DNA of 8,356 nt from positions 1 to 8,356 of the forward strand of contig JADHVM010000032.1 in assembly GCA_016783985.1 (NCBI GenBank). The letters are read 5' to 3'. A program made the translations under genes and the position numbers. Below the pieces are notes generated by a model that was given only the letters and a program-made list of their open reading frames with translations, had not been told where the DNA came from and searched no databases. Positions 1 to 8,356 of the stretch are shown here, in pieces (within the stretch, counting starts at the first letter, position 1; every line of letters starts with the position of its first letter). The stretch comes from Actinomycetota bacterium. GTDB lineage: Bacteria; Actinomycetota; Humimicrobiia; Humimicrobiales; Humimicrobiaceae.

Positions 1-364
1 TAGCTTCACAACTAACTACTATATATTTAGGATTATCAATACTATCAAAAATATCATAGTTTAAATAATTAATACTACAGTAGCCTCTATCTTTATAATT
101 CTTATTAAAGTATTCATAAATAACATCACTGAAATTTTCGTTTAAAACATTAATGCCCAAATTTTCTGCAGCTTCAATATCTACACTTTTTGTGGCCTCT
201 TCTGCAGCTATCATGCATGCTTTGTTTATTTCCTCCTTATAAGTTAATGCTCTCCCAATATCCACTATCATACCTAGTAACAGAATAAAAACAGGAAGTA
301 AAACTGCAATAATTACTAGTACTGAACCTTTATTTAACTTAGCATCAAAATTCAACTTTTCCAC
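1..364 (-). CDS. TadG-like Tad-domain pilus assembly protein (partial, C-terminus off the left edge)
   Basis: The first 121 codons of a minus-strand gene that leaves the window at its left end. A short charged N-terminus (EKLNFDAKLNKGS) leads into one hydrophobic segment at about residues 14-34, ending in IVDIGRAL. That matches the N-terminal Tad domain of TadG-type proteins, which typically read G-S-V, hydrophobic stretch, P, hydrophobic stretch, then VDxGR. The Glu expected five residues after a pilin-like cleavage Gly is absent (G13, then S-V-L-V-I), so it need not be processed as a pseudopilin. The visible remainder is an extracytoplasmic region with one Cys near residue 99. The start is GTG at 362-364, with GGTGGT seven bases upstream; it overlaps the end of the repeat-protein gene by 20 bases, suggesting translational coupling. 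TadG proteins are thought to be minor components or anchors of the Tad pilus. The family call is good; the exact role and total length cannot be seen. Confidence 0.8.
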   Translation of the reverse strand, partial: MEKLNFDAKLNKGSVLVIIAVLLPVFILLLGMIVDIGRALTYKEEINKACMIAAEEATKSVDIEAAENLGINVLNENFSDVIYEYFNKNYKDRGYCSINYLNYDIFDSIDNPKYIVVSCEA

Positions 365-1595
365 AATAATTACCACCCAACCATGTATTTGCATTGGAAC
401 TACTACCATTTGAGCTTATATTTATAGATCTATAGCCATTAATTGGATTACTAAAATAAATATGAGCACTTTCTCCGCTCTGAGCATAAAGATATATATG
501 AAGGATGCTATCTTCACCACCACTATAATTAAATTTTATTATAGTATCTATACTTCCTTTTGCAGAAGCAGGGACTGAATCATTATAAATTATTACTTTA
601 TCAATCCCATTATTTTCAAACCTACATACATTCTCGTAAATATAAATAGAATTAATTTTTTTTTCTTCTTCACCTGGAGAAATTTCACTATTATCAAGAC
701 TCCAGGTAACTTTAAGTTCCATATTGCATTCTTCACCCATAGTATTCTTATGCCACTTAGTGAATACATATTTTGGACTTTTTTCTACAACTACTTCACC
801 ATGAAGAGGTGGTACATAATAACCATCCCGAACAAATATCTTTTTATGTTCATAGTAACTAGTGTCTACCCATTCTTTGACAATATATTCCTCCCAGTAT
901 CCCCTTTCTACTTTATAAGACGTATCTACCCAATATTTTCCCACTTTTGTTTCCCAATGAGAGTTATCAACAACTTTGTATGCAGTATAAGGTTGCCAAT
1001 ATCCTGAATTAATCCAAACATTGTAATATTCTCTATATGTTATTAGTTTACTTCTAAATACCCATTTTTCAGCATAAATCCTACCACCCCTATAAGGCTT
1101 ATAATTTATAACCCATTTTTCTGCCCAATAAATATTTCCCTTATAACTTACTCTTTTAAGACCAGCTGGTTTTGCGGCAAAAGCATAAACATCCCAACCA
1201 TATTGATTTGTCCCAATAATAACAGTAAAATAAGTTGGTACCCAAATTGTTACATCCCTATATCTCCTTTCGTAATGAGAAGTATTGACATATCTATATG
1301 CTGTATAAGGAACAATTGTTTTGGATGGAACCCATACAGAATATTGGCCTACTTTCCAGTATCCTTGTTTAATAATATAAGAAGTATCAACCCATTTATT
1401 TCTTTTTACTTCCTTGTAATACCCATCTTTTACAAGAATTTTTTTATACTCCCAATGCGAATTATCAACCCAGATCATTTCATCTTCAGTAATTTCCACT
1501 TTAAGCCAGTTCTCGCTAAACAACTCGCATGGAGAAATAATAACAATTAAAAAAAATATAACTAAAAATAAATTAACTTTTAAAACCTTCTTCAT
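345..1595 (-). CDS. Secreted W/Y-rich WVDTS-repeat protein, candidate pilus-associated surface protein
   Basis: A 416-residue protein I cannot place in a named family. Residues 1-28 look like a signal peptide: KK/K n-region, a strong hydrophobic core at about 9-20, possible cleavage near LFS-EN. C23 follows Pro, which is a poor lipobox. Residues 42-260 hold repeats built on W-V-D-[TN]-S-[HY] and G-Y-[WY]; W plus Y make up about 22% of this part (16 W, 33 Y). Paired modules occur in mirror order: WVDNSHWEYKKILVKDGYY at 42-60 against WVDTSYYEHKKIFVRDGYY at 242-260; WVDTSYIIKQGYW at 68-80 against WVDTSYKVERGYW at 222-234; a PYTAY...SH[YW]E module at 96-109 against 202-215; and IYWAEKWV at 155-162 against IYAEKWV at 173-179. 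Residues 280-416 form a different, probably beta-rich domain with Cys at 290, 324 and 411 and a Ser/Asn-rich end. ATG start with AGGTGGT five bases upstream. It lies between tadE and a TadG-like gene, so a role in or on the Tad pilus (adhesin, tip or wall contact) is inferred, not shown. Confidence 0.85.
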   Translation of the reverse strand: MKKVLKVNLFLVIFFLIVIISPCELFSENWLKVEITEDEMIWVDNSHWEYKKILVKDGYYKEVKRNKWVDTSYIIKQGYWKVGQYSVWVPSKTIVPYTAYRYVNTSHYERRYRDVTIWVPTYFTVIIGTNQYGWDVYAFAAKPAGLKRVSYKGNIYWAEKWVINYKPYRGGRIYAEKWVFRSKLITYREYYNVWINSGYWQPYTAYKVVDNSHWETKVGKYWVDTSYKVERGYWEEYIVKEWVDTSYYEHKKIFVRDGYYVPPLHGEVVVEKSPKYVFTKWHKNTMGEECNMELKVTWSLDNSEISPGEEEKKINSIYIYENVCRFENNGIDKVIIYNDSVPASAKGSIDTIIKFNYSGGEDSILHIYLYAQSGESAHIYFSNPINGYRSINISSNGSSSNANTWLGGNYCGKVEF

Positions 1596-1600
1596 AATTT

Positions 1601-1607
1601 ACCACCT
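1601..1607 (-). promoter_or_regulatory. Ribosome binding site of the repeat-protein gene
   Basis: AGGTGGT on the minus strand, five bases before the ATG at 1593-1595. The same GGTGGTAA form occurs before the overlapping GTG start of the TadG-like gene, supporting both starts. Confidence 0.7.
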
Positions 1608-1646
1608 ATATTTATATATATTAAAAAACTTATTTCATAAAAAATA

Positions 1647-1677
1647 TTTCAGTCTTATATAATTAAAATCACTGAAA
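1647..1677 (-). terminator. Hairpin with U-rich tail upstream of the repeat-protein gene (possible weak terminator or attenuator)
   Basis: A perfect 7-bp inverted repeat (TTTCAGT / ACTGAAA) with a 17-base AT-rich loop, followed on the minus strand by TATTTTTT. It lies about 50 bases before the repeat-protein start and about 200 bases past the tadE stop. The stem is short and the loop long, so termination would be partial at best. It could separate the main tad operon from the last two genes, or act in their leader. Confidence 0.35.
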
Positions 1678-1795
1678 AATAATATAAAAATATATATAAT
1701 AACAAAAAAAATATAACTCCAAGATAAATAATATAAACAATATTTTCTTTATTAACATTTTATAAATTAATACTTTAAGTTAATACTAAAATTTA

Positions 1796-1821
1796 ATAGA
1801 TTGATAAAAATTTAATCTATC
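1796..1821 (-). terminator. AT-rich hairpin downstream of tadE (weak terminator candidate)
   Basis: ATAGATT and AATCTAT form a 7-bp stem, plus one G-U pair, around an 11-base loop. The minus-strand sequence after it is T-rich but broken by A residues (TAAATTTTAG). It lies about 50 bases past the tadE stop. The surrounding spacer (1596-1873) is almost entirely A and T, holds no convincing gene, and contains only weak promoter-like matches, so I name no promoter there. Confidence 0.3.
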
Positions 1822-1873
1822 TTCTTACATCCATTTTTTGGAAAAATATCCTTCTTCAATAATTGCTATTACA

Positions 1874-2293
1874 CTATTCTTTTTCTTCTATTCTCATTAC
1901 ACTAATTCCACTAATATCAATAGTGTCACTATCATAAAAAGGTAAAATCTTCGCAAAAAAAACTGGAATTGAGTATATCACTTCCACACTAACCGTATCT
2001 CCTGGATTAGTACCTTGAATATTAATATTACCCTTAAGTCTTTCATTAAAATTCCATCCAGGTAAAGTTGATGAAGCATAATTTTCAATTGAATCCAATG
2101 CTTCACTCAAAGGATCATCTGCTAGGGTTGCTGTTCTTGCACCTTCGTAAGATGCTGAATTTACTGCAATTTTTGCATTGAATATAAAGCCAAATTGAAC
2201 TATTCCAGCTAGGAGCAATAGAAGTATCGGCATTACTAGAGCTAACTCAAGTAAAACATTCCCATTTTTTAAGTGAATTCTATCCTTAATCAT
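1874..2293 (-). CDS. tadE: TadE-like minor pilin (pseudopilin)
   Basis: A 139-residue protein with the TadE layout. A short basic leader (MIKDRIHLKNG) ends at G11, followed by N-V-L-L-E16 with Glu at +5 of the mature protein, the hallmark of substrates of the Tad prepilin peptidase. A hydrophobic helix at about 13-38 contains ELALVMP, a typical TadE signature. Residues 46-60 (SASYEGARTATLADD) match the conserved A-x-x-E-x-A-R region of the family. The C-terminal half is an extracytoplasmic, probably beta-rich domain. TadE proteins are minor pilins needed for assembly or adhesion in studied Tad systems. The ATG at 2291-2293 is the only possible start, since a TAA lies directly upstream in frame, yet no Shine-Dalgarno sequence precedes it; translation may be weak or coupled. 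It is separated from the flp gene by 170 bases containing a hairpin. Confidence 0.88.
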   Translation of the reverse strand: MIKDRIHLKNGNVLLELALVMPILLLLLAGIVQFGFIFNAKIAVNSASYEGARTATLADDPLSEALDSIENYASSTLPGWNFNERLKGNINIQGTNPGDTVSVEVIYSIPVFFAKILPFYDSDTIDISGISVMRIEEKE

Positions 2294-2387
2294 TTATTAT
2301 ATAATTAATTATTAATTCAAATTTAATAAATTTAACTCAATTGCATTTCAGATCACAAGACTAAAAAAATAATCTTATTAAACAATC

Positions 2388-2409
2388 TTAATTGAAGAAC
2401 CTCAATTAA
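2388..2409 (-). terminator. Perfect 8-bp hairpin between flp and tadE (partial terminator or mRNA-stabilising stem)
   Basis: TTAATTGA and TCAATTAA form a perfect 8-bp stem with a 6-base loop, located 55-76 bases after the pilin stop codon. The nearest T-run (seven Ts) lies about 20 bases further along the minus strand, so it is not a classical intrinsic terminator. A stem here could protect the 3' end of an abundant pilin transcript or reduce read-through into tadE. The stem is seen directly; its function is inferred. Confidence 0.45.
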
Positions 2410-2463
2410 TATTTTGTATTTAGTGATATATAGCAAATATTTACCTGGTTACTAAAGCGATAT

Positions 2464-2634
2464 CTATAAACTATCCACAATTGATTGAAATACTGATTGA
2501 AGTTTACCTCCAAGTGCTGTTACCACTGCTATACAAACTATAACCACTAGAGCAATATAAAGAGCTATCTCTATAAGAGTGGCTCCTTTAGCTTTTATAA
2601 AAGTTTTCATTACCATTTTTTTAAAAAAATTCAT
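2464..2634 (-). CDS. flp: Flp-type major pilin prepilin (56 residues)
   Basis: A small gene encoding a classic Flp prepilin. The basic leader of 17 residues (MNFFKKMVMKTFIKAKG) is followed by A-T-L-I-E22 and a long hydrophobic helix (about residues 20-42), ending in LGGKLQSVFQSIVDSL. Cleavage by a TadV/CpaA-type peptidase is expected after G17, giving a mature pilin of about 39 residues with the conserved Glu at +5. The next residue, usually Tyr in Flp pilins (E-Y), is Ile here, with a Tyr three positions after the Glu (Y26... at E-I-A-L-Y). C34 lies in the helix. The ATG has a perfect AGGAGG six bases upstream, the strongest ribosome site in the window and fitting for the main structural subunit. 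The 84-base gap to tadC leaves room for its own promoter; a TATCAT at 2674-2679 resembles a -10 box but lacks a convincing -35. It is the likely fibre subunit of the machine encoded upstream. Confidence 0.92.
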   Translation of the reverse strand: MNFFKKMVMKTFIKAKGATLIEIALYIALVVIVCIAVVTALGGKLQSVFQSIVDSL

Positions 2635-2640
2635 TACTTA

Positions 2641-2646
2641 CCTCCT
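2641..2646 (-). promoter_or_regulatory. Strong AGGAGG ribosome binding site of flp
   Basis: A perfect AGGAGG six bases before the ATG at 2632-2634. It decides the start of this short gene and contrasts with the weak or absent sites of several neighbouring genes, fitting high pilin output. Confidence 0.8.
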
Positions 2647-2718
2647 CACCTTTTACTAAAATTTACGATTTTAATGATAATAATATTACAAATCTCTATA
2701 ACTCTACTTTCCATTGCA

Positions 2719-3555
2719 TTATAATAACACTTTCAACTGAGGTATAACTGGCAATAATAGTAATAAAAGCATTGGAATAAATATAAAAATAAATATTATC
2801 AGAATCAAATTCCCTTCTAATTTCTCTGCTTTCATTTTTAATAAATCCCTCTGATTGTTCCTAATAGTTCTCGACAAATCCTTAAGAACATCCTTAATAG
2901 GATTTCCTATAATATCAGATTGAACTAAAACTTTTACTATACTTTTAAAATCATCACAAAAAGAGAGTCTAGCAATACTATAATAAGCTTCTTTTTTACT
3001 ATAGCCTTCAAATACTTTTACCTGTAATACTTTAAAGAGACTACCAACTTCACTACTATAGTTATTAGCAATATAAGTTACAGCCTCATCTAAACTTAAT
3101 CCAGCTTTAATTAAAGAAGACAATATATCAACTATATCCGGAAGCTCGCCTCTTATTTTCGAACTTATATTGTTTATTTTGCCTTTAATAATTTCTAGAG
3201 GTAAAAAATATAATATCACTGCAGTAATAAGAGAATAAATGATAAAATTTTTTCCTAATAAAAATCCAGTAAACACAAAAATAATTAAAAAACTAATTGC
3301 AAGTATTATCCTTAGAAGAAATAAGCCTTCGATAGACTTTATTTCTACTTTAAAAATTTTTATACTTCCCCATTCTTCAATTAAAAATCTCAAATCATCA
3401 TATATCCTTTTACTGCGCTTTTTTACATTAAAACCATTTCTATGTTTCTCTAATCTTTTAAGTATTTCTTTTAGATTAGAAGAATTAATACTTGTGAAGG
3501 TTAAAAAAATAAAAACTGTCATTAAAATAGATATTGATATAATAATTATTTTCAT
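2719..3555 (-). CDS. tadC: Tad pilus inner-membrane platform protein TadC
   Basis: A 278-residue membrane protein with a GspF-type (T2SSF) domain at about 135-265. It begins with a hydrophobic segment (2-22), has a paired hydrophobic region at about 79-120, then the cytoplasmic domain starting GELPDIVDILSSLIKAGLSL, which closely matches TadB/TadC and GspF proteins (L-P-D, then A-G-L-S-L-D-E-A). A helix with conserved A-E-K-L leads into the last membrane segment (about 249-270). TadC pairs with TadB to form the platform on which TadA acts and through which Flp subunits are assembled. The ATG overlaps the TadB stop in an ATGA arrangement, so the two are probably translationally coupled and made in similar amounts. 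The assignment as TadC rather than TadB rests on gene order (TadA-TadB-TadC). Confidence 0.9.
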   Translation of the reverse strand: MKIIIISISILMTVFIFLTFTSINSSNLKEILKRLEKHRNGFNVKKRSKRIYDDLRFLIEEWGSIKIFKVEIKSIEGLFLLRIILAISFLIIFVFTGFLLGKNFIIYSLITAVILYFLPLEIIKGKINNISSKIRGELPDIVDILSSLIKAGLSLDEAVTYIANNYSSEVGSLFKVLQVKVFEGYSKKEAYYSIARLSFCDDFKSIVKVLVQSDIIGNPIKDVLKDLSRTIRNNQRDLLKMKAEKLEGNLILIIFIFIFIPMLLLLLLPVIPQLKVLL

Positions 3556-4436
3556 TTTAATGCCCTACTTCTCTCAGAAAAATTTACAATTCTGTTTATT
3601 AAGAAAAAACCAATTCCATAGCTTACAACTGCATACGATAAAAATAATAATCCAATACTAGAAAAAAGTATTTCTACAAAGTTTTTGTTAATTAGAGCAA
3701 TAATAATAATAGATACCAGAGGTATAAACATTATTATATAAGAAGTATATTTAGGTCCGGAACTTAATACCTTTATATAATTTTCTATATTTCTTCTTTC
3801 CCTAATATATTCAATTTGGTCTTTTAAAAATTCTATTAAATTAATTCCTTTATCATTTGCTACTATAAAACCTATGAGCACAACTTCTATAATAAGACTT
3901 TTATTTCTATTTATCATATTCCATAACGCTTGATTAAGTAATAACCCTCTCTTTGTATCGCCTAATACAATTTCAAATTCCCTAGCTAGTGGGTATTCTG
4001 CATCCCCTAATGTTTTCTCTAAACTCACTAGAATATTTGGATTACCATATAAATTGCCTACTAAATCGAGTAAAAACTGCTCTAGTTGATTCTCCTTTTT
4101 TGCATTTTCTTTTCTACTTCTTAAATCAATAAAAATAAATGTTAGAAAAACAGCAATAATAGAAAGCAATATTGAAATAAAAATCCCTACCCTTAATAAG
4201 AGCCCAAATATTAATGGAAGTAAAGATATTGTAAAAATTACAATTATAAATTCCTTAATATCTAAATTTATATTATTTTTCTTTAGCCAAGTATCGGCCT
4301 TTTCTATAATTCCTATCTTTTTATTTTTTTTACTAATAGAATAATTACTTGATCTAAGAAATCTTTTTATAATATTTCTCTTCTTCTCTATCACATGCAG
4401 TGCTATTGCACCAAATAAATATAAAAACCCAATCAC
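3552..4436 (-). CDS. tadB: Tad pilus inner-membrane platform protein TadB (true start probably ATT at 4469)
   Basis: From the GTG at 4434-4436 this is a 294-residue protein: a short hydrophobic N-terminus, a basic stretch (18-48), two hydrophobic segments (about 62-105), a T2SSF-type cytoplasmic domain (about 115-230, including FLLDLVGNLYGNPNILVSLE), and two C-terminal membrane segments (about 230-250 and 256-281). With TadC it forms the platform for pilin extrusion. The GTG has no ribosome site and would cut the first membrane helix short. The frame stays open upstream to ATT at 4467-4469, seven bases after GAGGTG; starting there adds 11 residues (M-KISIIISLFF) and makes a full first helix resembling the start of TadC (MKIIIISIS). 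That longer form would be 305 residues and overlap tadA by 16 bases. The family call is firm; the start is uncertain. Confidence 0.88.
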   Translation of the reverse strand: MIGFLYLFGAIALHVIEKKRNIIKRFLRSSNYSISKKNKKIGIIEKADTWLKKNNINLDIKEFIIVIFTISLLPLIFGLLLRVGIFISILLSIIAVFLTFIFIDLRSRKENAKKENQLEQFLLDLVGNLYGNPNILVSLEKTLGDAEYPLAREFEIVLGDTKRGLLLNQALWNMINRNKSLIIEVVLIGFIVANDKGINLIEFLKDQIEYIRERRNIENYIKVLSSGPKYTSYIIMFIPLVSIIIIALINKNFVEILFSSIGLLFLSYAVVSYGIGFFLINRIVNFSERSRALK

Positions 4437-4453
4437 AAAGAATAATGAAATTA

Positions 4454-5641
4454 TTATAGATATTTTAATTTGTAATCACCTCTCTCATCTAAATCATTAT
4501 CAACTAACAATACCTCTTTAATTTTTCTTTTAATTACATTAAAATCTTTATCCTTTTCAAACTCTAAAAATAAAACTACATCAATAGCTCGGGAGATAAT
4601 TTTCTTTATAACCTGACTACTAATATTAGGTTTATATTCTAAGGCTAGTATTTCTAACCTTAATAGAGAATCATATGCAGAATCAGCGTGAATAGTACTA
4701 AAACTACCTCTATGCCCTGTATTCAAGGCTGATAACATCTGGTATGCTGCCATATAGTTTCTAACTTCTCCAACTATTATTCTATCAGCTTTCATTCTTA
4801 AAGTTTCAAAAACAAGCTTATCTTGATTAATTTCATTATCAACTTCCCTTGATTTAGGCCTAGTAGTTAACATCCGGACATATGGATATTTATGTAATTT
4901 AATTTCTGGAACATCCTGTATAATATTTATAAACTCATTTTTAGGTATTAGCTTAGCCATAGTATTAAGAAGAGTAGTCTTTCCAGATCCCATAGAACCA
5001 GCTATTAATATATTTTTTTTACTTTTTATAAAATCTTTTAAAACCTTAAAAATTTTTAAATCAAACATTCCCAATTTAATTAAATCTTCCAGCTCAAAAT
5101 CCAAGCAGTTAAAAACTCTTATACAAATATAAATTTTATCTGAAACAGGTGGTATAACTATAGAACATCTGCTTCCATCATACAGCTCGGTATTTAGAAA
5201 GGGCATTCTTTGGTCAACAGTCTTACCCGAACCGTTTTTAATACGATCCACAATTAATTTAACCTCATCTATGCTATTGAAAACCTCACCTAAATATTCT
5301 TTTTTACCATTTTTTATAATCACCATTTCCTTGTTTTGAATAAAAATGTCAGTAACTTCTTGATCCTTTAAATATTGCTCTAATAGTCCAAGCCCAAATA
5401 TTTCACAAAGTGTTCTTTCTATTAAATTATCATTAATCTCATACTCTATATACGGATATTTACTAGCAATTTCATTGCTAATCATTAAAAATAACCGATC
5501 CTTAAAATCATCTCTACTCGTGAATTCTGTACTCAAAAGAGTACTATCTTTCTTTATTTTATTCTTAACTATACTAATAATTTCTTTTTCCTGCTGTTTA
5601 TTTAAAAACTGTTCTTTAAATAGTCTATCTCTTAACCCCAA
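4454..5641 (-). CDS. tadA: Tad pilus assembly ATPase TadA/CpaF
   Basis: A 395-residue PilT/VirB11-like secretion ATPase of the CpaF family that hydrolyses ATP at the cytoplasmic face to drive Flp pilus assembly. The N-terminal domain (about 1-180) includes the CpaF-like YLKDQEVTDIFIQ (90-102) and the VDQRMPFLNTELYDGSR region (142-158). The motor domain holds the Walker A motif GSMGSGKTT (215-223), an Asp-box-like IIQDVPEIKL (240-249), the Walker B-region IIVGEVR (288-294), and the His-box ALNTGHRGSFSTIHADSA (305-322). All catalytic elements are present, so it should be active. The start is TTG at 5639-5641, with AAGGAG six bases upstream overlapping the previous stop codon; the ATG four bases earlier is out of frame and stops after six codons. 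It lies 11 bases downstream of the ParA-like gene, in the standard order tadZ-tadA-tadB-tadC. Confidence 0.96.
   Translation of the reverse strand: MGLRDRLFKEQFLNKQQEKEIISIVKNKIKKDSTLLSTEFTSRDDFKDRLFLMISNEIASKYPYIEYEINDNLIERTLCEIFGLGLLEQYLKDQEVTDIFIQNKEMVIIKNGKKEYLGEVFNSIDEVKLIVDRIKNGSGKTVDQRMPFLNTELYDGSRCSIVIPPVSDKIYICIRVFNCLDFELEDLIKLGMFDLKIFKVLKDFIKSKKNILIAGSMGSGKTTLLNTMAKLIPKNEFINIIQDVPEIKLHKYPYVRMLTTRPKSREVDNEINQDKLVFETLRMKADRIIVGEVRNYMAAYQMLSALNTGHRGSFSTIHADSAYDSLLRLEILALEYKPNISSQVIKKIISRAIDVVLFLEFEKDKDFNVIKRKIKEVLLVDNDLDERGDYKLKYL
4467..4482 (-). promoter_or_regulatory. GAGGTG ribosome site and candidate ATT start codon of tadB
   Basis: GAGGTG (4477-4482) inside the last codons of tadA, seven bases before an in-frame ATT (4467-4469). 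No ATG, GTG or TTG lies at a suitable distance, and the later GTG at 4436 lacks any ribosome site. This points to an unusual ATT start, as known for infC in other bacteria. Confidence 0.5.
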
Positions 5642-5647
5642 TCATAT

Positions 5648-5653
5648 CTCCTT
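5648..5653 (-). promoter_or_regulatory. AAGGAG ribosome site that fixes the TTG start of tadA
   Basis: AAGGAG six bases before TTG at 5639-5641. The nearby ATG (5643-5645) is only two bases from this site and leads to a stop after six codons, so TTG is the better start. Confidence 0.7.
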
Positions 5654-6393
5654 TAAATTAAATAACTACTTATAGCTTTACTCACTTGCCTAAAAAATTT
5701 TGTTCTAAAAATTTTTTCCCTATTAAATAAAAAATTAGTTTTATTAAATCCACTATCCATGGAAATAAAAATCTCAATTGGAAGTTCAATAATCTTTGCA
5801 ATATCCCATATCTTATAAAAATCTAAAAATTTCTTTTTATTTATAATTACTTTCATCTTAGATTTTGATATAGAAAATTTGTCTACAAGAAATTTAAATA
5901 AACTTGAAATCCTAGATATACTTTCTAAGGAATAGTCTGTTACAATGAAAATTAAATCAGAAAATCTTAAGGCATCAAGAATAATACCATTAATAGTAGT
6001 CTGAGTATCTATAATAATAAACTTATAATCTCTGTAGATATAATCAAATAAAATATTTATAGCCTCAGTCTTTATACTCTCAGCGACCAGTGGATTTGAT
6101 ATTCCATTCAAAACATCCAGATTTTTATATATATTTTTAACATATCTACTATATTTTTGAGGAAATCTCAAAGCAAGTTCCAGGGATTTATCTTCTTCTA
6201 TATCAAAAATAGTCTTAAAATCACCAGGAGAGCTATCTAATTCTAGAAGCAGAGTTCTATACTTTGTTTTTTGGGCATAAAACATAGACATCGCTATAGC
6301 AATTGATGTTTTACCGACTCCACCCTTATTAGAAATTACCATCAATACACTACTTTTATTTTTTAAACTAGTACATGCTTCTTTGTAAATCAT
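5653..6393 (-). CDS. tadZ: TadZ-like ParA/MinD-family ATPase with intact P-loop
   Basis: A 246-residue P-loop protein of the ParA/MinD superfamily. It shows the deviant Walker A motif NKGGVGKTS (22-30) with both lysines, the Walker A' segment LLLELDSSPGD (D53), and the Walker B region FIIIDTQT (D129). It has almost no N-terminal extension (about 18 residues before the core) and no receiver-like domain. Its position between cpaB/rcpC and tadA is that of tadZ in known tad loci, where TadZ helps place the pilus machine at a cell pole or site. ParA-type plasmid partition is less likely, since there is no parB or partition site nearby. The ATG overlaps the cpaB stop as ATGA. It differs from the ParA-like protein two genes upstream, which lacks the P-loop lysine. 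Confidence 0.85.
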   Translation of the reverse strand: MIYKEACTSLKNKSSVLMVISNKGGVGKTSIAIAMSMFYAQKTKYRTLLLELDSSPGDFKTIFDIEEDKSLELALRFPQKYSRYVKNIYKNLDVLNGISNPLVAESIKTEAINILFDYIYRDYKFIIIDTQTTINGIILDALRFSDLIFIVTDYSLESISRISSLFKFLVDKFSISKSKMKVIINKKKFLDFYKIWDIAKIIELPIEIFISMDSGFNKTNFLFNREKIFRTKFFRQVSKAISSYLI

Positions 6394-7250
6394 ATCTTTT
6401 CAATAACAATCTTATATTTATCATCTTTAGTTAGTCTAGCTACAATAGGAGCTTCTTTAATACTGCATTTGACATAAATGACTATCTGTTCTTCTCCTCC
6501 ACTTATAAGAGAGCTACTTTTACTTATTATATATTCTTTAATATTTACTATCTCTAAATTTCTAACTATTAATTGTCCATTAATCAATAATATCTTTTCA
6601 GATAATTTATAACTGTTATTATCCATAAAATCATTTTTAATATAACAATTACCTTCTTCCAAACTTTCAATACAATTATAATAACTATCTTCTTCAATAA
6701 AACTTTTACTACTAGAACTATTATTAGAATCATCTTGTAGATAATTGCTACCATTAGTATAAGATCCTGATACATATTTACTTGAATTTAATAATTCCTT
6801 ATCTATTTGTGTTGAAATAATAGACACACTTCCACCAGTTTTTAATTCTTCTACTAATGGTTCTAAATATTGCATATTAATTGCTATTAATACTTCTCCC
6901 TTAGATAAATCGTCAATAATATTTTTACCCAAATCTTTAGTAAACAATTCTTTAGAAATAAAGTCTCCTTTCTTCCTATCCATTTGAATAATACTTCCAA
7001 CTACTTCTTCTTTACTCTGTAGATAATCTTCAGGTAAAGAATTCTTGTAAAATTCTTTAAGATCTATATCATCCTCTTTAATTTTTTCACCCTTTTCTAT
7101 ATTTCTTACAGCTACCAATATTTCTTCTTTGTTAAAATAAATATTTAAAAAAAGATAAGAAGCTACACCTATAATTAATGCTCCAACCACAGCTAGTATT
7201 AAATATTTTTTATAAAAATAATTAACCATAAATATATTCTTTCTAATCAT
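6390..7250 (-). CDS. cpaB: Flp pilus assembly protein CpaB/RcpC (SAF domain)
   Basis: A 286-residue protein with a basic N-terminus, one membrane helix at about 17-38, and a SAF domain at about 43-104 (ILVAVRNIEKGEKIKEDDI, then GSIIQMDRKKGDFISKELF), the standard CpaB/RcpC start. A second domain follows from about 118 (VLIAINMQYLEPLVEELKTGGSVSII fits RcpC). It is interrupted by a Ser/Asn/Asp-rich stretch at about 152-215 that looks flexible and contains C193 and C202. The RcpC-like fold resumes with LLINGQLIVRNLEIVNI. In diderm Tad systems this protein works with the secretin; here it is probably anchored to the membrane and faces outward. The gene overlaps the upstream cpaE-like gene by 8 bases (ATGATTAG) and the next gene by 4. 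The first ATG has no clear ribosome site; M8 (7227-7229) is a possible alternative start. Confidence 0.88.
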   Translation of the reverse strand: MIRKNIFMVNYFYKKYLILAVVGALIIGVASYLFLNIYFNKEEILVAVRNIEKGEKIKEDDIDLKEFYKNSLPEDYLQSKEEVVGSIIQMDRKKGDFISKELFTKDLGKNIIDDLSKGEVLIAINMQYLEPLVEELKTGGSVSIISTQIDKELLNSSKYVSGSYTNGSNYLQDDSNNSSSSKSFIEEDSYYNCIESLEEGNCYIKNDFMDNNSYKLSEKILLINGQLIVRNLEIVNIKEYIISKSSSLISGGEEQIVIYVKCSIKEAPIVARLTKDDKYKIVIEKI

Positions 7251-8325
7251 AAGTTAATAAATCCAAGACTTTATCCATAAAGCAATTGAAGTTTTTTAAA
7301 CTATCAAAATTGAAATTCCCAAAATTAGATCTCCCTTTTAACTGCTTATTCTCATCTATTAAAATAAATTCTTTTAAATTAAATAATTGCCTTAATTGAC
7401 TCTTATTAAATATAATTTCACTATCATTATTACTTTTATTTATTACCAATATTTTTTCCAGGTCATCACAAATAAACTTTTTATTTATATTTATTAGTCT
7501 TCCAATACTCCCTATCGTGCAATCAGATACCAATACCATAATATCTGCAATATCCATCACCCCTAAATACATATCATTTATGTAGTTCGGCAAATCAACA
7601 ATTATTAAATGATATTTTTTCTTAGCAACATCTATTAAAGTATATATATCATAAAGTTCCATTTTTTTAGCTAATGTGTAAGTTGGTGGAGACTGCAGAA
7701 TATCAAGGTTGTCCTTAATATTAAAGGTAGAATTATCCATGGCACTTCTACTGTAACCATCTAAAAAATTTATCATATTTGGAGACTTTGGAATGCTAAG
7801 GTAATATCCAATATCACCACCACCTTCAGAAAAATTTAAATCTATAAGAAGAGTTTTGAGTTTCCTGAACGTAAACCCTAAGAAGATGCTGAGTAGCGTG
7901 CTACCTACACCACCTTTAGCTTTAGTGAAAACTATTATTTTCTGTTTTATAGCTTTTATAGTTTCTACACTAAATTTATGCTCTGGATAATTAAGTTTAA
8001 TATTTATTTCTTCTTCTTTTGTATTTGATTTTTCGATAACTTCATCTTTATCAAGCTTATCATTTTTTACATTAATATAGCCCAAATTTTCACTACTTAA
8101 ATCACTATCCTTTAAGACACTGTCACCTATATTATTATTCAACTTATTATCACAATCTATATTTTTAGATAAACTCTCCTTATTAATTTCACTAACTTTA
8201 TCTATATATTTAGCTGATTCACTTTTACAGCTTTCTAACAATTTCTGCTGCCTTCTTTTTGATATATTACCGAAAATTTTCTTTATATTAAATATTTTTA
8301 TTCTTTTCTCTTTACTCTTTTTCAC
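7243..8325 (-). CDS. CpaE/TadZ-like ParA-family protein with degenerate P-loop
   Basis: A 360-residue protein (if started at the GTG at 8323-8325) with two parts. Residues 1-120 are highly charged and low in complexity (Lys, Asp, Glu, Ser, Asn), probably disordered, in the place where CpaE proteins often have a receiver-like domain. Residues 128-358 form a ParA/MinD-like core: TKAKGGVGSTLLS (134-146), in which the usual P-loop lysine is Ser142; the A' segment LLIDLNFSEGGGDIGYYL (D162); and the Walker B region HLIIVDLPN (D244). Loss of the P-loop lysine is known in CpaE/TadZ proteins and suggests altered or no ATP hydrolysis. It is likely a localisation or scaffold factor, possibly partnering the intact ParA-like protein downstream. 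The GTG has no ribosome site and the frame stays open to the right edge, so the true start may lie outside the window. Confidence 0.82.
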   Translation of the reverse strand: MKKSKEKRIKIFNIKKIFGNISKRRQQKLLESCKSESAKYIDKVSEINKESLSKNIDCDNKLNNNIGDSVLKDSDLSSENLGYINVKNDKLDKDEVIEKSNTKEEEINIKLNYPEHKFSVETIKAIKQKIIVFTKAKGGVGSTLLSIFLGFTFRKLKTLLIDLNFSEGGGDIGYYLSIPKSPNMINFLDGYSRSAMDNSTFNIKDNLDILQSPPTYTLAKKMELYDIYTLIDVAKKKYHLIIVDLPNYINDMYLGVMDIADIMVLVSDCTIGSIGRLININKKFICDDLEKILVINKSNNDSEIIFNKSQLRQLFNLKEFILIDENKQLKGRSNFGNFNFDSLKNFNCFMDKVLDLLTYD

Positions 8326-8356
8326 AAGATATTCTTTTAACTCTTTTTCTAATACT

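Follow-up and report, generated by a model that had tools for sequence, protein, structure and literature searches.

Analysis of an 8,356-nucleotide stretch of Actinomycetota DNA (assembly GCA_016783985.1, contig JADHVM010000032.1, positions 1 to 8,356; hereafter the window) indicates that a Tad pilus operon on its minus strand encodes a 416-residue, apparently secreted protein that is probably a self-complementary two-stranded antiparallel beta-ribbon at the Tad pilus, in which residues 41-127 pair with residues 175-261. The two arms are written in two types of short unit, termed D and G, with D units of one arm facing G units of the other in the register i+j=302, where i and j are facing residues. 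That the arms pair in this antiparallel D:G manner we regard as very probable. The unit code, the register, the parity of residues along the arms, their covariation and the Tad operon are all established at the level of sequence, and are described below together with the predicted structure and the alternatives to it.

The protein is read from the open reading frame (ORF) that runs from 1595 to 345 on the minus strand, the plus-strand frame starting at 345 being interrupted by stops. An earlier note on this DNA had described eight modules in the order A-B-C-D-D'-C'-B'-A', and this mirror-order architecture, for which the note named no strand, is genuine; it is encoded by the minus strand and recurs throughout the family. 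Its identities are exact (13/19 for A and A', 9/13 for B and B' and 9/14 for C and C'), as are the spacers of 7 residues each between A and B and between B' and A'. The best three ungapped self-diagonals of residues 28-262 score 82, 75 and 69, versus means of 37, 33 and 31 and maxima of 60, 50 and 40 in 200 shuffles. Best partners were counted with segments W-6..W+12 in those members that could be scored among 62 aligned sequences, including that of the window. B pairs best with B' in 55 of 59 members and B' with B in 58 of 61, C with C' in 53 of 62 and C' with C in 57 of 61, and A with A' in 41 of 58; A' pairs best with A in 34 of 62, with B the runner-up in 14. A dot-plot in which all modules are equally similar to one another, named in the note as the contrary outcome, is thus not what the 62-sequence alignment gives. 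When only the short common core is compared the mirror preference is weaker, with A preferring C in 29 of 58 members and A' in 22 of 58. The modules thus have a core in common and differ by context, and it is in the context that the mirror pairing resides.

Other parts of the module description need revision. C and C' do form a mirror pair, but C is only part of a longer block (85-111 and 191-217) that is repeated in direct order with 13 of 27 residues identical, and the half-module E of this block (88-94) is not in mirror order with its copy E' (194-200). E lies opposite C' and C opposite E', as a fold-back of the chain would explain. The proposed fourth pair, based on IY and AEKWV, is a short similarity at offset 17 in and beside the central cap (score 45), and its two copies are not opposite each other when the ribbon register is applied. 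A duplication followed by reordering, which the note offered as one origin of the pattern, by itself leaves the equal spacing, the D:G complementarity and the forks described below unexplained. A plain mirror duplication of whole modules was rejected, since half-module E is out of mirror order and D:G-like facing nevertheless holds there.

Underlying all modules is a unit of 7 residues that begins and ends with an aromatic, W-V-x-x-[S/G]-[H/Y]-W. It exists in two types: the D unit, W-V-D-T-S-H/Y-W (WVDTSHW), and the G unit, W-V-x-x-G-Y-W (WVxSGYW). At register 302 the window protein has D42/G254, G54/D242, D68/G228, G74/D222 and D102/G194, or five D:G pairs out of five, and at a sixth level, 88 on 208, a degenerate G unit lacks the Gly, although some other members have a clear G:D pair there (level 46 in the flip counts below). 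Relatives were treated alike, with the fold-back register picked by the number of facing units and blind to unit type. In a redundant set of 166 proteins that includes fragments and locus ORFs, 149 have at least three facing units, which make 826 D:G, 1 D:D and 17 G:G pairs with 62 different spacings. Reduction of 190 proteins at 70% identity leaves 87 non-redundant members; 81 have at least three facing units, and their 473 pairs comprise 462 D:G, 9 G:G and 2 D:D. Shuffling the labels of this set 300 times gives a mean of 52.8% D:G and a maximum of 60.3%, and its direct (tandem) register has no D:G preference (221 D:G, 114 D:D and 120 G:G). A control within each protein, using non-redundant members of less than 540 residues with at least four pairs, yields 338 of 346 D:G in the best register versus 390 of 697 (56%) in 195 other fold-back registers having at least three facing units. 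Within the 462 pairs, Asp of the D unit is opposite Gly of the G unit in 94%, and the W that opens D is opposite the W, Y or F that closes G in about 84%; W:W makes up 59% of the D0:G6 positions and 37% of those of D6:G0, as judged by register rather than by structure. A nested-fold score over 162 proteins paired 1910 of 2262 units with the D:G rule, versus 724 when like was paired to like and 1204 with shuffled labels. Because this score splits stems arbitrarily at tied scores, we rely on the single-register counts.

Covariation and residue periodicity give the same register and the same type of strand. Homologues numbered 103 by single-sequence search (E<=1e-3) and 171 by profile search, and were sampled from the 120 matches listed of these 171 and the 120 listed of 161 from a further search; the alignments A1, A2 and A3 hold 64, 62 and 84 sequences. 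Mutual information with average-product correction, averaged per antidiagonal over 84 aligned sequences, ranks i+j=302 highest among 122 antidiagonals (z 5.25), with 304 and 300 next and parallel diagonals reaching at most z 2.1. In sequence terms, 302 followed by 304 and 300 is the pattern of an antiparallel pair. The same antidiagonal remains first of 119 (z 3.65) after removal of the unit columns, and first of 54 (z 3.86) after additional removal of the cap-proximal part. Successive units are spaced by an even number of residues in 1090 of 1153 cases (63 odd) and the distance of W from the unit before it is even in 1570 of 1604 (34 odd), as expected of a strand with one W-lined face. In the 84-sequence alignment W accounts for 16.0% of the even positions of the arms and for 0.0% of the odd ones; even positions also carry 10% K/R and 12% D/E, and odd positions 15% and 13%.

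Some levels read D:G in certain members but G:D in others, so that both arms have changed. Among 31 non-redundant members sharing the first four levels, level 46 is G:D in 4 and D:G in 8, level 80 is G:D in 5 and D:G in 2, and level 74 occurs once in each form; these counts are of members and not of independent events. A wider flip table counts from the outermost detected level, such that a missed first level shifts it and may explain part of its 15 G:D at level 0. Most relatives of at least 540 residues additionally appear to be forked. Of 17 such proteins, 15 have an outer stem of 5-8 facing pairs and, between its arms, an inner stem of 4-8. The outer stems are D:G in 104 of 104 pairs and the inner ones in 90 of 92, with 300 label shuffles giving a mean of 52.2% and a maximum of 66.3% for the latter. 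For example, the inner hairpin of P0092 has arms 120-212 and 222-314 and a short closing loop. The remaining two differ: P0055 has no outer stem by the same test, and P0103 has three mixed outer pairs and four inner D:G pairs. The survey of long members covers P0001-P0134, leaving P0135, P0136, other later matches and the locus ORFs outside it.

A second pair type is present in Thermoanaerobacter, Caldanaerobacter and their kin, in which WVPEQGHW (Q, 8 residues) stands opposite WVVDVPGHY (V, 9 residues). Ten partly redundant proteins contain 13 Q units, of which 11 have a V unit in register with at least four supporting D:G pairs; the other two face WVVEVPGHY and WVVDTPAHH, variants that the pattern missed and that were seen by eye. 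One of the 12 matches in the Q:V table, Q62 of P0155, was taken as a chance register and excluded, and P0154 has one V unit without a Q partner. Since Q and V differ in length by one residue, the register shifts by one residue across a Q:V level. Where D:G pairs flank the level on both sides this shift is visible, as it is for 5 of the 13, for instance in L018 (331 outside and 330 inside); the other cases form the innermost level, are supported only from one side or lack a V that fits the pattern. In L018, L023, P0151 and P0153 the string of one arm (for example DGQDGDDDDG) is the exact reverse complement of the opposite arm. The arms of L019, P0156 and P0157 match except for one extra G unit, and here the first arm carries V and the second Q; L016 has one missed V and one missed D unit (WTDTSHW), and the automatic arm split failed for P0155. 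By eye, P0095 (listed with P0096) may hold a further pair type, with AYRTVSYTKEEPYTA and AYRTVTYTEKIPYTA on opposite arms.

The ribbon itself, and the presence of both its arms in one chain, are predicted. An AlphaFold2 (AF2) monomer model built with 62 sequences has a predicted local distance difference test score (pLDDT) of 78.8 and a predicted template modelling score (pTM) of 0.48, and the strands and breaks of its two arms mirror at i+j=302. Strands are predicted at 41-44, 47-55, 58-70, 73-75, 78-89, 92-104 and 107-127 in the ascending arm and at 173-195, 198-210, 213-224, 227-229, 232-244, 247-255 and 258-261 in the descending arm. The structure prediction that the earlier note proposed as a check therefore returns mirrored arms, with the pairing read from the strand string. 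Of its two suggested folds, the hairpin is retained, as opposed modules fit one antiparallel fold-back, and the solenoid is unsupported. Its expectation that paired modules meet is supported in that they would face each other, but the basis is the complementarity of D and G half-units and not the packing of like on like. Of the best PDB matches by Foldseek, most are pore proteins whose beta-hairpins are very long (lowest E 2.4e-3, template modelling (TM) score about 0.1); they constitute a likeness of shape only, as far as the model goes. A comparison with viral models gave one match (E 1e-4, TM <0.1), and the query-normalised TM is at most 0.18 among the 50 matches listed. In the AF2 model of the forked P0092, the breaks of the inner hairpin are at the predicted i+j=434.

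A number of observations weigh against this interpretation. The strongest covarying pairs are mostly off register, since a distance of one residue or less from it is seen for 3 of the 50 highest-ranked and 9 of the 100 highest-ranked (1.5% expected). The alignment also amounts to a modest 70 effective sequences at 80% identity and 23 at 62%. Pairing in the AF2 model is inferred from a strand string whose breaks fall inside units and would mirror anyway. The model of P0092, made with 15 sequences, is poor (pLDDT 40) and does not form the outer stem, for which reason the forks rest on sequence. Fewer than three facing units are found in 17 of the 166 proteins, some of them fragments, and six of the 87 non-redundant members fail (L029, L021, L025, P0058, P0134 and L017). 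The distant Actinomycetota proteins of L021, L024 and L025 (376-408 residues) give only two pairs from five or six units. Judged only by how symmetrically the units are spaced, 117 of 159 proteins surpass their gap shuffles (at most 1 of 100), and the unit patterns were defined after the family had been inspected. Most levels do not flip, level 60 being D:G in 18 of 18. Lastly, a clear upstream Tad set is missing from five (L015, L017, L022, L028 and L029) of the 21 related loci having at least 3 kb upstream.

As we envisage it, the ribbon protein would be exported by the Sec system. The chain would ascend for ~87 residues, form a small conserved cap and return in register i+j=302, the arms zipping through D:G pairing and cross-strand aromatics. 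In each pair, the Asp of D would lie opposite the Gly of G, with the aromatics at the ends of the two units facing one another across the strands. Because D would pair with G, the order of units in one arm would set the order in the other, which is read as A-B-C...C'-B'-A'. The predicted rod of ~87 residue pairs would be roughly 25-29 nm long at ~3.3 Angstrom per residue, with an Ig-like domain at its base beside both arm ends and the conserved, non-repeat cap at the far end. The position of the gene among those for minor pilins suggests that the base may dock on TadE-like pilins at the pilus tip, leaving the cap for contact. We lean, by a modest degree, toward such a role at the tip, as a non-pilin tip or stalk protein.

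This account must be weighed against other ways of using the same arms. Identical D:G pairing could occur between arm 1 of one molecule and arm 2 of another to give a swapped dimer or a fibre. Register, code and covariation fit one chain and two alike, and the W-lined face could pack ribbon on ribbon; nevertheless, inner hairpins with a short loop, as in the long member P0092, are natural within one chain and AF2 yields mirrored strands from a monomer. A single chain is probable and the two-chain version unlikely. An ordinary tandem repeat, in which every WVDTSHW makes one turn of a solenoid or local beta-meander and duplication produces the mirror order as a by-product, would account for the common core of all units and for consecutive breaks in the strand string, which could be tight turns, and some Thermoanaerobacter members are near-regular 12-residue arrays. 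Yet it gives no reason for D facing G over 100-250 residues at one constant sum, for the covariation at i+j=302 without units, for joint flips on both arms or for Q:V facing with its one-residue shift, and the counts given above show neither the like-to-like facing in direct register nor the lack of preference in a fold-back register that it leads one to expect. A local meander or solenoid was rejected on coevolution, D:G facing and the within-protein register control, and we consider the tandem-repeat explanation very unlikely.

The function assigned to a fold-back ribbon has alternatives as well. Its best PDB matches by Foldseek include the perforin, lysenin, protective antigen and aerolysin pores, which raises the case of a membrane-inserting protein whose long hairpin joins a beta-barrel. 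The TM of about 0.1, the lack of a PDB sequence match, the Tad operon context and the polar residues on both ribbon faces, neither of which is apolar, make a pore-former extremely improbable, and this candidate was rejected on the Foldseek scores and the polar faces. A possibility to be taken more seriously, though one we still doubt, is that the ribbon is a scaffold of the cell wall or matrix, or a Tad assembly factor, instead of a part of the pilus tip. No pilin domain was matched, no sorting signal or lipobox was seen by eye, and the C-terminal domain is like the biofilm matrix protein RbmA in fold class, which is a weak hint. The gene is nonetheless situated between two minor-pilin-like genes, and other Tad loci encode tip pilins at the corresponding position among the minor pilins, in line with PMC12075869.

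The minus strand of the window carries a Tad pilus operon (Table 1), with genes in the order CpaE/ParA-like, CpaB-like, ParA-like, CpaF, TadB, TadC, Flp-like, TadE, ribbon gene and TadE/TadG-like. AAA_31 is above its cut-off in 5653-6393 and below it in 7243-8325, and the CpaB-like gene (6390-7250) has SAF above cut-off and TIGR03177 at 34.8 bits, under the cut-off of 71. This single Tad operon thus contains two distinct ParA/CpaE-like ATPases (5653-6393 and 7243-8325), one with an N-terminal extension of ~125 residues. A scan of eight genes of the window found no prepilin peptidase, though the operon may continue past the end of the window; in Thermoanaerobacter wiegelii (L018 11275-11670) a prepilin peptidase gene (PF01478) directly follows the ribbon gene. 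Among 31 related loci, 30 were recovered by BLAST of their ORFs, and 16 of the 21 with sufficient upstream sequence have an upstream same-strand Tad set of at least three different genes. In L029 the CpaB-, ParA- and CpaF-like genes are downstream of the ribbon gene. L015 has in place of the Tad set a diverged T2SSE-type ATPase (E 5e-11), and 8 of 10 genes scanned there have no Pfam match; as its ribbon gene comes after what is a diverged locus for type IV filaments (L015 3153-4601), the family may serve beyond classical Tad systems. In five Actinomycetota loci the gene after the ribbon gene was compared: those of L001, L003, L009 and L024 pass the TadE or Tad cut-off, and that of L007 matches TadE and Tad below both cut-offs, like the window's. 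An extra gene for 207-243 residues is found just before the ribbon gene in six loci (L003 8807-9430, L012 2935-3666, L026 9234-9962, L027 3001-3732, L015 8033-8656 and L022 4272-4913), placed after TadE in L003, L012, L026 and L027, and is lacking in the window. The five products that were read all have a hydrophobic start, and the L003 and L015 copies have no Pfam match.

Table 1. Features of the ribbon gene and of the Tad operon in the window
Feature	Position	Strand	Basis
Whole gene, 416-residue apparently secreted protein, predicted beta-ribbon	345..1595	minus	ORF; 103 homologues E<=1e-3
Apparent N-terminal signal peptide, residues 1-27, boundary approximate	1515..1595	minus	hydrophobic N-terminus by eye; AF2 helix 2-20
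Predicted ascending ribbon arm, residues 41-127	1215..1475	minus	AF2 strands and coevolution at i+j=302
Cap between arms, residues 128-174	1074..1214	minus	conservation; AF2 helix 131-136, strands 141-151 and 154-165
Predicted descending ribbon arm, residues 175-261	813..1073	minus	AF2 strands mirroring arm 1
Putative C-terminal Ig/FnIII-like domain, residues 262-416	348..812	minus	
D unit 42-48 WVDNSHW (module A), opposite G unit 254-260	1452..1472	minus	
G unit 54-60 LVKDGYY, opposite D unit 242-248	1416..1436	minus	
D unit 68-74 WVDTSYI (module B), opposite G unit 228-234	1374..1394	minus	
G unit 74-80 IIKQGYW, opposite D unit 222-228	1356..1376	minus	
Degenerate G unit 88-94 WVPSKTI without Gly, opposite D unit 208-214	1314..1334	minus	pair list
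D unit 102-108 YVNTSHY (module C), opposite G unit 194-200	1272..1292	minus	
G unit 194-200 WINSGYW	996..1016	minus	
D unit 208-214 VVDNSHW (module C')	954..974	minus	
D unit 222-228 and G unit 228-234 (module B', WVDTSYKVERGYW)	894..932	minus	
D unit 242-248 WVDTSYY (module A')	852..872	minus	
G unit 254-260 FVRDGYY (module A')	816..836	minus	
TadE/TadG-like minor pilin gene downstream, cut by window end	2..409	minus	TadE 22.4 bits vs 22.9, Tad PF13400 18.5 vs 22.3: below both cut-offs
TadE minor pilin	1874..2293	minus	PF07811 E 1.9e-14, 53.9 bits vs cut-off 22.9
Putative Flp-type major prepilin, 56 residues, KGATLIE motif	2464..2634	minus	read by eye
TadC and TadB	2719..4436	minus	T2SSF E 3.6e-12 and 1.3e-8, both over cut-off
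CpaF/TadA ATPase	4454..5641	minus	T2SSE E 3.5e-33; TIGR03819 190 bits, under cut-off 373
CpaE-like ATPase, CpaB-like protein and second ParA-like ATPase	5653..8325	minus	

The W/Y-rich region of the ribbon protein extends to residue 261, where the C-terminal domain begins, and the cap carries the conserved sequence GT..YGW.VY.FAA ... DY.P..GG. Sequence searches gave no Pfam, NCBIfam or PDB match for the 416-residue protein, no TadE or Tad (PF13400) match in it at E up to 0.1, and no Pfam match for six further proteins, of which five are relatives that the homologue searches had returned and one is a locus protein. The earlier description of the protein as unrecognised thus holds, as these searches placed the window protein, the five relatives and the locus protein in no characterised family; apart from its Tad locus, the ribbon protein fits no tested family definition. 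PADLOC returned no match for three proteins, and no relative was found in the viral contigs searched. A tblastn search of plasmids with P0151 gave weak partial matches to 100 records (22-26% identity and none covering 80% among the 20 matches listed), which we read as matches of composition. In P0090-P0093, P0098, P0100 and P0103 the ribbon is joined to another type of C-terminal domain (G[KR]VLHT...YE[IV]FFNGE or YDVFFNGE), pointing to modular exchange. Additionally, a contig labelled Micrarchaeota, a label taken as given, is spanned in its entirety by an open frame of 1402 residues with five D:G pairs at register 585 (L030 1-4207).

Taken as a whole, it is rather likely that this family is a protein analogue of base pairing, in which the order of D:G and Q:V modules specifies nested and, in long members, forked antiparallel ribbons with compensatory flips, and in which the ribbons are tip stalks of variable length in the Tad pili of Actinomycetota and thermophilic Clostridia. 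If so, local modules would dictate long-range beta pairing by a readable rule, such that topology is legible from sequence, and the rule could be checked by compensatory changes of a kind otherwise known from RNA. The family would also provide a natural ribbon scaffold that varies in length and branching and is a test case for how evolution lengthens both arms jointly, and it would put forward a candidate for the structure at the tip of Tad pili in poorly known Actinomycetota.

The proposed ribbon shares individual traits with several known systems. Tryptophan zippers are short designed peptides with cross-strand W:W pairs on a two-stranded hairpin; by register, W would often face W in the ribbon as well, which has ~5-10 levels over ~87 or more residues and two unit types. 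The ultra-long beta-hairpins of pore-formers are alike in the length of a two-stranded hairpin, but the ribbon protein has no sequence match to them and no barrel is expected of it. The arms of SMC proteins are fold-back antiparallel coiled coils in which the chain goes out and returns in register, a topology like that of the ribbon, and differ from it in being helical. To our knowledge, there is no unit code for pore-former hairpins and no two-letter complementary module code for fold-back coiled coils. PilY1/ComC-type tip adhesins of type IV pili, of which PilY1 is a beta-propeller, resemble the ribbon protein, by description only, as secreted non-pilin proteins encoded with minor pilins. 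Among Tad systems, TadG/KilN pilins are proposed to present variable domains at the pilus tip (PMC12075869). The Kil/Tad tip complexes described there (TadE, TadF and TadG; KilL, KilM and KilN) are alike in being encoded with Tad minor pilins and in having a large variable partner among small pilins. KilN/TadG are pilins with an alpha1N helix, whereas the ribbon protein has no TadE/Tad match, an apparent Sec signal peptide and a predicted beta-ribbon. CpaL of Caulobacter, a vWA-bearing minor pilin and candidate Tad pilus tip protein (PMC12607857), carries a pilin-like and a vWA domain, neither of which is matched in the ribbon protein. Literature searches on the fold and motif, with subscription literature and bioRxiv outside their scope, found no description of such a pairing code or repeat design in the titles and opening lines of abstracts that were listed. 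Long hairpins as such are known; what appears to be new is the pairing code to which the two types of unit, the complementarity between them, the flips on both sides and the forks together amount.

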